Shown here in pieces: positions 10,974-17,097 of a stretch of 36,289 nucleotides of DNA (position 1 is the first letter of the stretch; each line of letters starts with the position of its first letter). A program made the position numbers and the translations under genes. Under the pieces are notes generated by a model. It made no database searches. It had not been told where the DNA came from and saw only the letters and a list, made by a program, of their open reading frames with translations. Source of the stretch: Deltaproteobacteria bacterium (GTDB lineage Bacteria; Bdellovibrionota; FAC87; UBA2466); NCBI GenBank assembly GCA_900299195.1, contig OMIX01000018.1, positions 1-36,289 of the forward strand. Reading direction: 5' to 3'.

Positions 10974-11061
10974 AAGGTCCTCGGATAGTGATTTATAAAG
11001 TTTACCATCAAACCGATAAGATACAGAGTTCCAAAACGTATTTTTTATTTCGGAGATAGTG

Positions 11062-12111
11062 ATGAAACGCTCAAAAGTGGAATGGGTTTTTATCTGTCTG
11101 TTTGTTCCTTCCGTAATTGGTTTTTATGCCATTTATAAATATCCTGAATTCCTTTTAGGATCGGGCGTTGACACGCGGTTATTAGGAAAGAACTTATCTT
11201 TTTGGTATGCAGCGTTGTATACCGCTGTAGTTTGTAGCATTGCTGGAAAAGTGATTCTAAAAAATAAAAATAGTTATTCGTTTAAGGCCAACATTACTCA
11301 ACCACTAAGTTCCTACCAGAGAAAGAAGTTTACCAGTATTTTTCTAGTCCAGTTGGTTGGATTTTTCCTTATACCTTATGTGATTTCTCCTATCATGGCC
11401 GGCAAAAGTTTTTGGCAAGATGAACTGATTTATTCTTCAAAAGCGGCCCATGTTTATCTTTATCCAGGATTTAAAAGTTGGGGGATGGCCATTTATCTTT
11501 TCGTTGTGATTCCAGTTTTTGTTTGGTTCTTTGGAAAGCGCTATTGTTCTTGGATCTGTTCCTGCGGAAATTTGGCCGAGACTGTAGGAGTGACCGTTTG
11601 GGGTAAAAAATGGGTAAAAGAGGGAACTCCCCGAGGAGACGCTGCGAATAAAAACCACAAGATTCAATTGGCAGTGATGGCCTTTGCCATTTTTTTCGGA
11701 GTTCTCTTGCTGGTTGATTCGATGAAGGTAGTTGCTATGCCCGGACTTCTGCAAAAAATTCAAGCGATCCAAGATTTCTTTGTCGATTTTATGTTTGGCT
11801 CTGTGATCGGTGTTGCAGCCTATCCTTTTTGGGGCACTCGAATTTGGTGCCGATATGGTTGTCCTTTAGCTAAGTTTATGGAGTTGTCGGGAAGGGTATC
11901 TAAATCTAAATTCCAAGTGGCTGCGAATGAAAAATGCACAGGCATTGGTCTTTGTACTCAGGCTTGCCCAATGGGAATTGATGTGGCTTCATTTGCTCAC
12001 GTTAATAAAAAACCTACGCTAGGAAGTTTTGGCCTACAAAATACCGTCTGTATCGGATGTGGGGGATGTATTGATGTGTGTCCTACCAAAGCGTTGAGTT
12101 TTAAAAAGTAA
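11062..12111 (+). CDS. Membrane-bound 4Fe-4S polyferredoxin (NapH/CcoG-like)
   Basis: The 349-residue integral membrane protein has about five hydrophobic segments and four cysteine groups. C162, C166 and C168, and C263 with C267-P, are the conserved membrane-face motifs of the NapH/NosR/CcoG group. A C-terminal double-cluster ferredoxin follows: C292, C298, C302-P and C330, C333, C336, C340-P. Such proteins pass electrons at the cytoplasmic membrane to reductases or metal-handling systems; the partner is not encoded nearby. The GTG at 11059 is possible, but the ATG at 11062 is better spaced from GGAG. Its last 54 coding bases are duplicated exactly at 15532-15585, so this 3' end may have served as an insertion site. 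The protein itself is complete. Confidence 0.9.
   Translation: MKRSKVEWVFICLFVPSVIGFYAIYKYPEFLLGSGVDTRLLGKNLSFWYAALYTAVVCSIAGKVILKNKNSYSFKANITQPLSSYQRKKFTSIFLVQLVGFFLIPYVISPIMAGKSFWQDELIYSSKAAHVYLYPGFKSWGMAIYLFVVIPVFVWFFGKRYCSWICSCGNLAETVGVTVWGKKWVKEGTPRGDAANKNHKIQLAVMAFAIFFGVLLLVDSMKVVAMPGLLQKIQAIQDFFVDFMFGSVIGVAAYPFWGTRIWCRYGCPLAKFMELSGRVSKSKFQVAANEKCTGIGLCTQACPMGIDVASFAHVNKKPTLGSFGLQNTVCIGCGGCIDVCPTKALSFKK
12056..12109 (+). repeat. 54-bp direct repeat, left copy (3' end of the ferredoxin gene)
   Basis: These bases encode the last cysteine cluster and C-terminus of the polyferredoxin up to the first base of its stop codon. They are identical at all 54 positions, in the same orientation, to 15532-15585. 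I read this as the attL-like end of an inserted segment, because the gene is intact here. Confidence 0.95.
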
Positions 12112-12134
12112 GAACAGAATTTTCTCTCCTTACT
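12107..12134 (+). terminator. Weak hairpin after the ferredoxin gene, related to the one at 15583
   Basis: AGTAAG (12107-12112) can pair with CTTACT (12129-12134). This 28-base block aligns without gaps to 15583-15610, 20 positions being the same. One difference is compensatory: the fourth and twenty-fifth bases are A and T here, G and C there. No strong T-run follows, so termination would be weak. Confidence 0.4.
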
Positions 12135-12348
12135 GTAGTGTTTAAATCTTTTTATTCCTTAAAGGCTTTTAACTTGAGTTTGTAAGAATTTGAATTTTTG
12201 CAGGTTACTTTAAACTTGGCGAATTACTTGATGTTTTTTTAACAATTTAAGAACACGGAGACCCTAAGTATTAATAACTTACCTAAGCTTCAGTCCTAAA
12301 CACAAATTCTTTGCCATTTAGTGGAATTGAAATTATCGTTCCTATCCT

Positions 12349-13545
12349 ATGCTACAAAGACTTCCCCAAGGGAAACTCTGGAAAAGTTTACTTTTTCTTC
12401 AAGTCCTTATTGTCCTTGGAATCACAATAAAAACGATGTTGGGCGGTCCACCGGGTCACTATGCCATCTTCACTACTGCAGGAAAATATCTGCTCCAGGG
12501 TAAAAATCCATATGGAGTTGAATGGGGATTTGGCGGCCTTTGGTTTTACAGTCCTTTGTGCGGGTGGTTTTTTGGCCTGTTATCTCTCATGCCATTCAAG
12601 GTAGGGCTTTTAATTTTTAATCTAGGAAGCCACCTACTTATTCTTGAGGGGGTTCGAAGGTTTCTAAAGCTGTTTCCTGACATCAACAAACCAAATGCTT
12701 TTTTGTCCCTGTTAGTAGTTCTTTCAACTGGCGAGCTGATTGGTGCTTATCAAAGCATTAAAATCGAAATGGCAATGATTGGTATTTTACTGATAGTAAC
12801 GGAACAAGTATCAGTTCGTCCTATTCTTGCGGCTAGCCTAGCTGCACTGATAGTGAACTTTAAATGGTTTCCAGCTGCTCCTGTAGGGCTTCTTGCGATA
12901 GCAAGTTTACGGCATCGGAAGTTTAAATTTCCACTCGCCCTGCCTATCTTTTTTCTTTTCTTTTTCTTGCTGCCAGTTTTTATCTATGGATGGTCTTTTG
13001 CATTGGAGTTATATCGCACTCAGCATGTAACATTGGATAGATTTGTCAGTCAAGTTTATGGAGACTTCCCTAGTGTATTTGGAATGGTTATACATACTTT
13101 CAACATCATGCTCTCACCAGTTATTGTCGCAATAGTAATGGGGCTTGTTGCTATTATTCTTGCTGGGTTCGTGGTCTTTGCTCCCTATCAATGGGATTTG
13201 CTTTCCGTTATTTCGATAAGTTTAGGCTCGCTCTATGTTGTGAATTTCAACCTTCTTAGCCAGTTCAATGCTTATGCGATTGCAACGCCAGCCCTTGCCT
13301 ATACACTTTTCCTCTGCTTTTCTGAAAACAAATGGAAGCGGTATCTATCAATCTTGGGGGTTGCAGCGTATTGGATGACTGTATCTATGTTTTATTCTGA
13401 TTTGGTTCCCCTTTCCTTTCGCGATTTTTGTCGAGAAATACGGATCAAACCCTTGGGAAGCCTTATACTTTTGACTCTCCTCCTTGGTTTGGTTGGATAC
13501 GATATCGTTCACCGGCAGATATCAGATAGTGATGTAAAAGCCTGA
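12349..13545 (+). CDS. GT87 (DUF2029)-like polyprenyl-phosphate-sugar glycosyltransferase
   Basis: The 398-residue polytopic membrane protein has roughly ten hydrophobic segments. After the first helix comes GKYLLQGKNPYG and then LWFYSPL, the pattern of GT-C family GT87/DUF2029 enzymes, in which a periplasm-facing loop precedes a G-x-NPY and a YxP motif. Those enzymes transfer mannose or related sugars from a polyprenyl-phosphate donor to envelope glycans. NFKWFP (about 168-173) also fits. The ATG at 12349 gives a start just before the first helix; no clear ribosome binding site is seen. It is the only + strand gene in the repeat-bounded segment, so acquisition with that island is likely. Sugar and acceptor are unknown. 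Confidence 0.72.
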   Translation: MLQRLPQGKLWKSLLFLQVLIVLGITIKTMLGGPPGHYAIFTTAGKYLLQGKNPYGVEWGFGGLWFYSPLCGWFFGLLSLMPFKVGLLIFNLGSHLLILEGVRRFLKLFPDINKPNAFLSLLVVLSTGELIGAYQSIKIEMAMIGILLIVTEQVSVRPILAASLAALIVNFKWFPAAPVGLLAIASLRHRKFKFPLALPIFFLFFFLLPVFIYGWSFALELYRTQHVTLDRFVSQVYGDFPSVFGMVIHTFNIMLSPVIVAIVMGLVAIILAGFVVFAPYQWDLLSVISISLGSLYVVNFNLLSQFNAYAIATPALAYTLFLCFSENKWKRYLSILGVAAYWMTVSMFYSDLVPLSFRDFCREIRIKPLGSLILLTLLLGLVGYDIVHRQISDSDVKA

Positions 13546-13700
13546 GATTTGGCTTGAAGATTAAACCGTGGCCCCCTCCCATTTCGTCTTTGGGTTTTGA
13601 AACTGCGCAACACAGCTGGTTGGATAGTTTTGTTTGCTATCATTTTAGTTACGGTCTTAATACTCCTGCAAGAAATGGGGCTTTGTGACGCTTATTCTTT

Positions 13701-14573
13701 TCATCTATCAAACACAAAAAGAACAGCTAAATCAGAGGAAGGTTGAAAATTATTTTTAATTGATTGAAACTTCGTGCTCGAAACCTTCTTTAAATCATCC
13801 CAACAAAGGGAAACCAATGTAGTAGGAGATGATTTGACTATATTTAATTCAAAAGTTTCAATGGGTCCTGCCCAATTATTAGCTGTTCTTAGAATGTAAG
13901 CAAATCTACCGAATGAGTTAAAGTGCATATAATCATTCAAAGTAGTGTAATTACTGCCGGGTAATTTTGTTGTTAGTTTGTTTTTTAGCTTCTCAAAAGA
14001 CTTCAGAAAAGTGGAATCGACACAATAAGTGAGTTTATCTTCGATTGAGAGCCCACTATGATTTCCGAAAGCGATATCTTGCGGTGAGTGCCCCCAACCA
14101 GTTCCGAGAGAAGTCCTGTATTTATGAGTAACTTTAACATTTTTACCAGGAGGAAATGTTTGTTCCCAAACGTAATTAACTTGGAGTTGATACTCTTGGT
14201 GTGATTGAGCATAAAACTTTTTTTTTGTTAAAATTTTCGGAGTTACCGGTTTGTCATCGACTTTTACTTCAAAATGAATTGGATCTTTACCTTGCATCCA
14301 ATCTTCTATTCGACCATCGATAGCATAGGGCAACTCAGATTGAAGTTCTGGAAGGGGCCACGATACCGTGTCAGTGATAGGCTTTTGTTGACGATTTCTG
14401 AATACATATTCAACTTCTACCTCTTTTTCAGAAATCGTTAATTTCTCTGATACCATAGAAACTTGATCAGTTTTTTTAAAACGGATGTTTCCTCCCTCAA
14501 CCCGTGCCAAAGAATCATTGGCTGAAGCAGATTGAAAAACAACGATAAGACAAACAAACAAAAATGTAGGCAT
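13701..14573 (-). CDS. Exported DUF4424-like protein
   Basis: The 290-residue product has a signal peptide (about 1-18), then NDSLARVEGGNIRFKK and a SEKLTISEKEVEVEYVF stretch followed by VSWPLPEL. This order (NDS, GG-x-x-F, E-x-L-x-IS, and a PLPE turn) matches my recollection of DUF4424 exported proteins, whose function is not established. The rest is probably beta-rich (KVTHKYRTSLG, FELNIVKSSP). It ends without an obvious anchor. It lies 25 bases downstream of the leucine-rich-repeat-like gene, so the two probably form an operon inside the repeat-bounded segment. The family call is moderate; the gene call is firm. Confidence 0.68.
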   Translation of the reverse strand: MPTFLFVCLIVVFQSASANDSLARVEGGNIRFKKTDQVSMVSEKLTISEKEVEVEYVFRNRQQKPITDTVSWPLPELQSELPYAIDGRIEDWMQGKDPIHFEVKVDDKPVTPKILTKKKFYAQSHQEYQLQVNYVWEQTFPPGKNVKVTHKYRTSLGTGWGHSPQDIAFGNHSGLSIEDKLTYCVDSTFLKSFEKLKNKLTTKLPGSNYTTLNDYMHFNSFGRFAYILRTANNWAGPIETFELNIVKSSPTTLVSLCWDDLKKVSSTKFQSIKNNFQPSSDLAVLFVFDR

Positions 14574-14598
14574 GAAGTAAGTTTAAGTTAAAGCAATT

Positions 14599-15372
14599 CT
14601 AGAATCGATAGAAAAAAGTGTAGCCCCAAGGACCAATCACATCCCAGTAACGGTAGTATTCGTAGGGATACCAATCGTAGTAACTTTTGATAAAACCGTA
14701 GTAATCAAAGTAGGTAGGGTGACCAGTGGGTCGGACCGGAGTTGAATTCAACATTCCTCGCATCAAACTTATTTTAAAAAGTCTCATTTGTTCTTGAGAC
14801 TTTCTCATCAGCTCATACTCTTCATTCCCCATTTTTCTAGTAACTTTTTTAAGGTTAGCTTCGCTGATGGGATTAAGAATTGGGTTCTTCTCGATGCGAA
14901 TAGAAGCAATGTCAAAAAGTTTCTCCGCAAACACAAACTCTAAATTTATACAGTTAGCCAGAATCAGTCTACCCACTCTTCTCAATTCGGGAAAATTTAA
15001 AAACTCCATCTGCTGTTCTTGAAAAACGAGTCGAGAAGTTACAGTTTCTAGTTTGGGAAATTCAGCCACTTTGAGGTCTGAACCCGTTAAATAGATATCC
15101 CGTGCAGCCTCAAGAGCAGGGAAGGCCACGGCCTCCAGGGACCTAGAATCGACATTAATTATCCCAACACTTTTTAATTTGGGAAAAGTAGCCTCTTTAG
15201 CATCATCAATAAAAACGGCCAGACTCTGCCTAATTTCGCAAACATCTTTCATCCTCTCTAGTTGAGTGATGCTATCAATTCGAGCAAACTCAATGGATCG
15301 GCAAGGCTGCTCAATCGCTATCCCCATTCCAGATAACAGTGAAAAAAATACAATTCCTATAAACTTAATCAT
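14599..15372 (-). CDS. Exported leucine-rich-repeat-like protein with an aromatic-rich tail
   Basis: The 257-residue protein has a signal peptide (1-20). Residues about 30-165 form degenerate leucine-rich or receptor-L-like repeats marked by FPKL, FPAL, FPKL and FPEL at roughly 22- to 25-residue intervals. The last 37 residues (221-257) contain 20 aromatic residues (Tyr, Trp, Phe), a striking composition. A GGGGG stretch precedes the ATG as ribosome binding site. The DUF4424-like gene follows 25 bases later. I infer a surface or periplasmic binding protein; the tail might insert in or lie on a membrane, or bind carbohydrate. Nothing catalytic is visible. Confidence 0.7.
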   Translation of the reverse strand: MIKFIGIVFFSLLSGMGIAIEQPCRSIEFARIDSITQLERMKDVCEIRQSLAVFIDDAKEATFPKLKSVGIINVDSRSLEAVAFPALEAARDIYLTGSDLKVAEFPKLETVTSRLVFQEQQMEFLNFPELRRVGRLILANCINLEFVFAEKLFDIASIRIEKNPILNPISEANLKKVTRKMGNEEYELMRKSQEQMRLFKISLMRGMLNSTPVRPTGHPTYFDYYGFIKSYYDWYPYEYYRYWDVIGPWGYTFFYRF

Positions 15373-15531
15373 ACTGGCCCCCAGATAGTGCAGCGCATTT
15401 TATAAACAACCTCAAAAAACTCAATCCTTTTTCCGCACTTCCTATAACTTTTAAATCGAATGAGACATCAGACAGGCAACCTATCGTCTTCATTTGACTT
15501 TTCAATTTTGAGCCATTTCTTGGTTGTCGAA

Positions 15532-15585
15532 GATGTGGGGGATGTATTGATGTGTGTCCTACCAAAGCGTTGAGTTTTAAAAAGT
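15532..15585 (+). repeat. 54-bp direct repeat, right copy (orphan ferredoxin 3' fragment)
   Basis: This exact copy of 12056-12109 would encode CGGCIDVCPTKALSFKK followed by TGA. It has no upstream ferredoxin sequence and is not a gene. It runs into the left arm of the strong terminator at 15581-15612, suggesting that this terminator once followed the ferredoxin gene directly. I read it as the attR-like end of the inserted segment. Confidence 0.95.
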
Positions 15586-15612
15586 GAGGAGAGAAAGCTC
15601 CCTCCTCACTTT
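15581..15612. terminator. Strong bidirectional hairpin terminator
   Basis: A perfect 11-bp stem pairs AAAGTGAGGAG (15581-15591) with CTCCTCACTTT (15602-15612) around a 10-base loop. On the minus strand, five T in a row cover the end of the stem and what follows, so it should end the cysteine peptidase transcript, whose stop codon is 8 bases away. On the plus strand a T/A-rich stretch follows. Confidence 0.85.
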
Positions 15613-15619
15613 ATTTATT

Positions 15620-16933
15620 TTAATAACGGGTTAGGGCTTTAATACAGAAGTTAGCCGATTTCTCATTTTGGATTAAATCTGTCCAAACTCCATTCTTCAG
15701 GTAGAAACTCTCCCCTGGATTGGCTTTGGACTCCACGATCGTTCGGGTTTTTCCTCCTAAAAGAACGGGAACATCAGAGGTTTTATCGAACGCGTGACCT
15801 CCATGGGATAAGGTGACTTGAACATAGAATGAATCTCCTTTATTCAGCTCGACCGAGTGGTCTAGATCCACTGTGTGATATCCCGAATTCTTAAATTCTC
15901 CATCGGCCATTGAAACCAGGTTGCTTAGCTTACCGTTTTCGAAGGTTTGATAAACTGATACCAAGTAACTCACATTTTCAGCTGCCGTATAAAAGCTTAC
16001 TGATTCTAGGTTTTCCTTCCCGTTAGGTCCACCCTCAGCTGTAAAAGCATTGAAAGCTTCGGTGACCTCTTTTTGGGTGTCTCTCCATCCGTGATAGTCG
16101 AGAGTGTAGATTTTGTTGTAACGAAGTTTCTCCACATTTTTGAACGAAACGGCTCCCATTTGGGGGTGATGGCCGGAAGTTTTATCGTAATAAGAGATCC
16201 AAAAATAGCCGTTCTCTCCCCAACTTGAACCCCAGCTATTTTTAACAAGCCAAGCACCTTTTTGCGGAGCTTGAGTTACTTTGTTGTCATCCCAGCCAAT
16301 GATGGCGACAGCATGGTTGGGTTCTTCTGAGCTGGTAGGGGGTTGATAGAAAGTGTTTTTCGAACTGGAATAAAAACTGCTGCTCCAATCAAGAGCTGTT
16401 CCAATCACTCCGCCTTCCATAATCGCTGTTTTGAGCGATTCGATATTTTCAAGTTGTGCCCCTGCGTTGAGCCATTCGATGTCTCTCACATAGTAAGTAT
16501 GATAAGTGTCCGATTTGAATTTGGGGGCCGAGCCGAAAGACTGAGCGTCAACATCTCGAACAGCTCCTTCTCGAGAGAGATAAGCAGCTGCGACTCGATA
16601 ATCTCCACCTTCATGTACCGAGAGGCCGGCTTTTTTGGGGTTGATATCAGCATTGAAGTGCTCATTGAATCCATTCCACCAATCTAAATGATACTCAGCT
16701 AAATTGGGCTCTCCGGATTCTCCGTTTATTTGCCACTGTTGAGTCATCATCAAATTGCTTTCAACAGCCGCCATGGTTCCGTGGGTCCAACAAGTGCCTC
16801 CGCTTTGACTTTTGACTGCAGAAACAAACTTTTTACCGTCTACCGATCTGAGATCAAAACTTGCGGGAGAGGCTAAAGTGGTTTGAACCAAACTCGTGCC
16901 GAGAAAAAGGGATGCTAGAAAATAGAGCTTCAT
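15620..16933 (-). CDS. Exported papain-family (C1) cysteine peptidase with a C-terminal beta domain
   Basis: The 437-residue product has a signal peptide (1-22) and then begins at once with SFDLRSVDGKKFVSAVKSQ, the mature papain N-terminus; there is no inhibitory propeptide. Catalytic residues are visible: Q43 as the likely oxyanion Gln, C48 in GGTCW, H207 in PNHAVAIIGWDD and N232 in KNSWGSSWGENGYFWISY. Residues about 275-437 form an extra domain resembling the lectin-like domains found after some bacterial C1 peptidases. The ATG at 16933 has GAGG six bases upstream, better than the TTG at 16945. It is probably a periplasmic or secreted protease. The gene is monocistronic and ends at a strong hairpin. 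Confidence 0.92.
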   Translation of the reverse strand: MKLYFLASLFLGTSLVQTTLASPASFDLRSVDGKKFVSAVKSQSGGTCWTHGTMAAVESNLMMTQQWQINGESGEPNLAEYHLDWWNGFNEHFNADINPKKAGLSVHEGGDYRVAAAYLSREGAVRDVDAQSFGSAPKFKSDTYHTYYVRDIEWLNAGAQLENIESLKTAIMEGGVIGTALDWSSSFYSSSKNTFYQPPTSSEEPNHAVAIIGWDDNKVTQAPQKGAWLVKNSWGSSWGENGYFWISYYDKTSGHHPQMGAVSFKNVEKLRYNKIYTLDYHGWRDTQKEVTEAFNAFTAEGGPNGKENLESVSFYTAAENVSYLVSVYQTFENGKLSNLVSMADGEFKNSGYHTVDLDHSVELNKGDSFYVQVTLSHGGHAFDKTSDVPVLLGGKTRTIVESKANPGESFYLKNGVWTDLIQNEKSANFCIKALTRY

Positions 16934-17097
16934 GGTGAACCTCAATGGTTTTTAAGTTTTTGGGTGAATAGGGCTTAATTAAAGATTTATTTATTTTCTC
17001 CTATTTTAATTTGATTCTAAACAGAAATAAAAACTGAGCGTTAACAGAAGAGAAGGTAAAGTTTTAACTTTTTTGGGTGGCGAGTCAAAAAAATAGA

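Follow-up and report, generated by a model that had tools for sequence, protein, structure and literature searches.

A three-gene insertion behind a polyferredoxin gene that looks like homology-assisted gene gain in an uncultured relative of Bdellovibrio

We identified a lineage-specific insertion of 3.4 kb between a polyferredoxin gene and a C1-peptidase gene in an uncultured aquatic relative of the predatory bacteria, bounded by two identical copies of the ferredoxin 3′ end. The segment was probably acquired in a recent homology-assisted, not site-specific, insertion of DNA from a close relative, combining a homologous anchor with an illegitimate join. As such it looks like ordinary gene gain at a convergent gene boundary, with a clear footprint, and not like a new mobile element. 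It offers a clean, recent example of single genes entering a conserved chromosome region without a visible mobile element, in which the recombination scar can still be read. The DNA analysed, referred to here as the window, is the entire contig C18 (36,289 bases) of a 2.83-Mb genome that is ~97% complete.

The duplicated ferredoxin end and the empty site

The features of the locus are as follows, with the evidence for each in brackets.

11059-12111, + strand: intact gene of a NapH-like membrane polyferredoxin, 350 aa, whose 3′ end is duplicated (ORF, Fer4 domains)
12056-12109, + strand: left copy of the 54-bp direct repeat, made up of the final 53 bases of sense codons and the T of the ferredoxin stop codon (exact maximal repeat)
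12108-12133, + strand: left hairpin, related to the right hairpin and a weak + strand terminator (folding; 19/28 in-register identity)
12110-15531, no strand assigned: inserted body of 3,422 bp, missing at this place in congeners (empty site in G001, G003, G004 and G005)
15532-15585, + strand: right, orphan copy of the 54-bp repeat (exact repeat)
15584-15609, no strand assigned: right hairpin, at the position of the ancestral ferredoxin/peptidase boundary (folding energy)
15620-16945, − strand: C1 (papain-like) peptidase with a lectin-like domain, the right-hand neighbour (PF00112 and PF18560)

An earlier sequence-only reading of this DNA had described identical, same-orientation copies at 12056-12109 and 15532-15585, the left completing the polyferredoxin gene and the right an orphan, and both descriptions were confirmed, the ferredoxin ORF being intact. 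The repeat is maximal, with mismatches bounding it at 12055/15531 and 12110/15586, and is the sole exact repeat of at least 20 bp in the window (chance expectation ~7e-24). Other direct exact repeats of at least 30 bp were confined, in a 330-kb sample of the same genome, to one local tandem array. On its left side the repeat begins at no particular point of the ferredoxin coding sequence, and local alignment against shuffles found no similarity beyond chance upstream of the two copies. The polyferredoxin itself has orthologues of 80-86% identity in five congeners, and its best NCBIfam match is the NapH/MauN subfamily, far below the cut-off.

These five congeners (G001-G005) are metagenome-assembled genomes and include Bdellovibrionaceae bacterium UBA2466 and a Lake Baikal bin. 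Four of them (G001, G003, G004 and G005) have an empty site, in which the ferredoxin and C1-peptidase genes are convergent, their last sense codons lie 0-26 bp apart and no hairpin is present between them; in G004 this junction lies at a contig start, and just the C-terminal part of the peptidase is present on that contig. The peptidase orthologues adjoining the ferredoxin gene in the congeners are 72-80% identical. At the G002 boundary there is a different insert of ~0.6 kb, read from its sequence as holding a methyltransferase fragment. Comparison with relatives had been put forward as the way to look for an empty site, and since four of the five have one, the 3.4 kb is an insertion. Gene order in the congeners indicates that the ancestor had the two genes convergent and adjacent, and the insertion is real and specific to the lineage of this genome. 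There is strong support for the proposal that DNA entered between ferredoxin and peptidase and left the ferredoxin end whole.

The sequence-only reading had also raised the prospect that the duplication is an assembly artefact. Two strain variants, one occupied and one empty, would then have been fused into one contig. The assembly is fragmented (128 contigs) and is most likely a metagenome bin as its congeners are, and if k were 55, the repeat length then being k−1, a branch between strains at the stop codon could produce the same picture. However, when 148 contig ends of the assembly were compared, nine pairs shared an overlap of exactly 121 bp and overlaps of 54 or 55 were absent, so that a k-mer artefact of this kind was rejected; shorter overlaps (16, 22 and 24 bp) were uninformative. 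The graph k is thus most likely 121, a value inferred from the contig-end overlaps. It exceeds the whole 82-bp repeat, and 121-mers in the reads therefore had to cross both junctions. The window also contains no Ns. With this route largely closed, an artefact is highly improbable.

The two hairpins and the course of the insertion

The 28 bp strictly downstream of the two repeat copies match in register at 19 positions, a level attained by just 3 of ~72,500 unrelated 28-mers of the window on both strands; the 20/28 related bases reported earlier are exact for the stretch 12107-12134 compared with 15583-15610. A terminator hairpin had been read after each copy, and this holds for the right one, which folds strongly both ways (−18.0 kcal/mol in the + direction and −21.4 kcal/mol in the − direction) and is predicted to be a strong bidirectional terminator. 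The left hairpin is unconvincing as a terminator for ferredoxin (−5.9 kcal/mol, z −0.6 and no T-run in the + direction) and is better in the − direction (−11.6 kcal/mol). A dispersed terminator or REP-like family was rejected because the hairpin pattern is present at these two places only, and no known RNA families or tRNAs were found.

The copies show no differences in 54 bp as against nine in the next 28 (Fisher p = 2e-5), which implies that the stop codon is the meeting point of two distinct though related alleles. Such a pattern is hard to obtain by duplication and later drift, since no coding constraint acts on the orphan copy. An older, longer duplication that has since decayed was likewise rejected, given the chance-level similarity upstream and a distribution of differences that excludes simple decay. 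The in-register similarity of the hairpins, lacking in the congeners, points to a ferredoxin locus of the same lineage as the source of the incoming DNA.

We propose that DNA from a close relative brought in the 3′ end of a ferredoxin gene, a variant of the hairpin behind it and then the three genes, and that it was anchored through one homologous crossover inside the 54 bp. The illegitimate join at the other end would lie at 15531/15532, which corresponds to 12055/12056 within ferredoxin. Such a join could have formed in two ways: a linear fragment beginning at 12056 may have been closed into a circle by ligation before a single crossover integrated it, or the event may have been a one-sided homology-facilitated illegitimate recombination (HFIR). 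Either course would leave ferredoxin intact with the donor's hairpin behind it and would strand the recipient's own gene end and terminator as an orphan beside the peptidase, the 54 bp being a scar without function of its own.

Several observations are in keeping with homology-anchored insertion. The far end of the insert carries a partial duplication of the homologous locus (the orphan 54 bp and the related hairpin), and its near end is homologous to the target through the left hairpin. The left repeat edge is arbitrary, one cargo gene of 257 aa is native to the family with a congeneric orthologue that has the upstream stretch in common, and other congeners have other inserts at convergent boundaries of the block. 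In E. coli, when recircularised linear DNA integrated by single crossover, part of the homologous locus was duplicated over 109-950 bp (Amarir-Bouhram et al. 2011, PMC3240628). Events of this type and of HFIR share with the present locus the single homologous anchor, the single illegitimate join and the flanking of the incoming DNA by a partly duplicated homologous locus; here, in contrast, 54 bp are duplicated, with a further 28 bp diverged, no deletion is seen to accompany the insertion and the event is a natural one. Counting against this explanation, 54 bp is short for a crossover by RecA, and it is somewhat surprising that a donor should match the 54-mer exactly and yet differ by 32% in its terminator. 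Neither 369 genomes of the phylum nor a ferredoxin-based scan of genome contigs yielded the donor allele (ferredoxin, left hairpin and GT87).

Perfect identity over 54 bp beside a diverged hairpin would also be explained if both copies came from the recipient, through template switching or staggered-break repair in replication. Synthesis would have switched at the hairpin behind ferredoxin to another molecule, copied the three genes from it and re-entered 54 bp upstream, and hairpins favour polymerase switching. Such a course nevertheless still requires a template in which the three genes come after a related hairpin, and the outcome is hard to separate from homology-anchored insertion on sequence alone; we regard switching as distinctly unlikely.

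Site-specific integration at the ferredoxin 3′ end

The sequence-only reading had interpreted the locus as a site-specific insertion. The 54 bp would then be an attachment site in the ferredoxin 3′ end, used by a small element that is now without its integrase (a CIME-like remnant) and that restored the ferredoxin gene while displacing the original end, as e14 did in icd. The anatomy fits: direct repeats lie at both ends and one of them completes the target gene, relatives have the empty site, the original end is a displaced orphan and identity runs right up to the stop codon. The ends of protein-coding genes are known to serve as attachment sites on the 3′ side. In E. coli, prophage e14 occupies the 3′ end of icd and has left a displaced end of 163 bp (PMC6379469), and in that system, too, the insert supplies the gene end and the original end lies as an orphan on the far side.

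Unlike e14, which is a prophage with an integrase, the segment holds three cellular genes of mixed origin, with no phage families. No recombinase was found in the 3.4 kb by ORFs and Pfam, in agreement with the earlier statement that the element lacks an integrase, and a profile search detected neither PF00589 nor PF00239 on contig C18. The search for an integrase, which had been suggested as a follow-up, yielded no serine recombinase in the genome and three tyrosine recombinases, all on other contigs; the one that was examined has ordinary neighbours. The 54-mer, which had likewise been suggested as a query, occurs in the genome as two copies only, both at the ferredoxin locus, and its core has no match in IMG/VR. 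A duplicated ferredoxin end was absent from the five congeners, from four distant orthologues (for which 1.5 kb downstream was covered) and from the paralogue; none of these congeners and distant orthologues gives a sign of the site being used, nor was its repeated use by related elements seen. CIME-type remnants, which are flanked by att sites and have no integrase, resemble the segment in having direct repeats at both ends and no recombinase; they differ in that here neither the genome nor the congeners hold a related integrase or a second user of the repeat.

With no integrase inside, a site that is unused in congeners and mixed cargo, the site-specific interpretation was not borne out and we consider it unlikely. 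Were it true, polyferredoxin would be new as an attachment gene and the element would be one without an integrase; the evidence leans against this. Its most far-reaching form, in which the ferredoxin 3′ end would serve an undiscovered small element that is mobilised in trans, through a recombinase with its gene elsewhere, and moves envelope genes between aquatic Bdellovibrionaceae, is very unlikely.

Other loci were noted in the course of these searches. A 397-aa tyrosine recombinase on contig C31 (L136:11042-12235) has cellular neighbours and no tRNA close by. A second polyferredoxin paralogue in the same genome (L080, contig C95) is 55% identical and has no duplicated end. On contig C9 of the same genome there are perfect palindromes of 42-48 bp with GGGGTCAGTC ends in several copies (L091:12635-12681, 13770-13817 and 16323-16364), which are REP-like or transposon-end-like.

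Cargo genes and other convergent boundaries

The following features lie within the inserted body.

12349-13545, + strand: GT87-like membrane glycosyltransferase gene, 398 aa (PF09594 just above cut-off)
13701-14573, − strand: gene of a DUF4424 exported protein, 290 aa (PF14415, 203 bits)
14599-15372, − strand: gene of an exported beta-solenoid protein, 257 aa, native to the family (G004 orthologue, host-like codon usage)
15397-15431, − strand: conserved stretch upstream of the 257-aa gene, common to G004 and G012 (blastn 83-85% over 33-35 bp)

The cargo had been called envelope-type, which is roughly right: the GT87-like protein is a membrane protein, and the DUF4424 and beta-solenoid proteins have apparent signal sequences. 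Its parts form a patchwork of mixed origin, one native gene and two that look foreign, and not one coherent element. Measured against 220 sampled long ORFs of the same genome, the GT87-like gene lies at the 1st percentile of the host codon score and the DUF4424 gene has the lowest GC3 (0.276). Both are absent from all five congeners, and relatives of the GT87-like gene in the phylum are just ~30% identical. A search of the phylum for a donor yielded, for the two genes, relatives that are just ~27-41% identical. A viral origin was rejected since neither gene has relatives in IMG/VR and there were no PHROG matches; relatives of DUF4424 include three records labelled phage (within a range of 24-33% identity). 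A plasmid origin was also rejected, GT87 having no relatives on plasmids and DUF4424 merely relatives of 24-33% on rhizobial and methylobacterial plasmids.

The 257-aa gene has a 73% identical counterpart in G004, between a radical-SAM gene and smpB in the same synteny block, and is present too in two genomes of another genus (G010 and G012). Its product has no Pfam match; the structural model, of moderate confidence, is a beta-solenoid built from short repeats that faintly resembles receptor L domains, and no known fold matched it at E ≤ 0.001. Promoter-like hexamers are located at 15424-15397, and the conserved upstream stretch is probably a promoter travelling with the gene. Judged by its placement in the different genomes, this appears to be a native gene relocating without a visible mobile element. 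Copies of the gene are found in different places (window:14599-15372, L072:3843-4622 in G004, L073:6315-7157 and L074:7723-8514); it occupies two boundaries of one synteny block in congeners, and the upstream stretch is kept in G000, G004 and G012.

Gene gain and loss at convergent boundaries of the block extends to the congeners, with different inserts at other such boundaries in G001, G003, G004 and G005 and, in G002, at the ferredoxin boundary. The inserts in G002-G005 differ from the one described here in having no exact repeat of at least 18 bp left at them. The convergent radical-SAM/smpB boundary (window:20382-20422; L072, L077 and L079) also takes in different inserts, namely the 257-aa gene in G004, an ATPase-like gene in G003 and a cold-shock-like gene in G005, the last two assigned by sequence reading. 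At another convergent boundary, in G001, a tandem duplication with a 212-bp period (L078:8260-8683; 154 + 57 bp exact) lies directly behind a methyltransferase gene, with a further copy of 23-25 bp at 13662.
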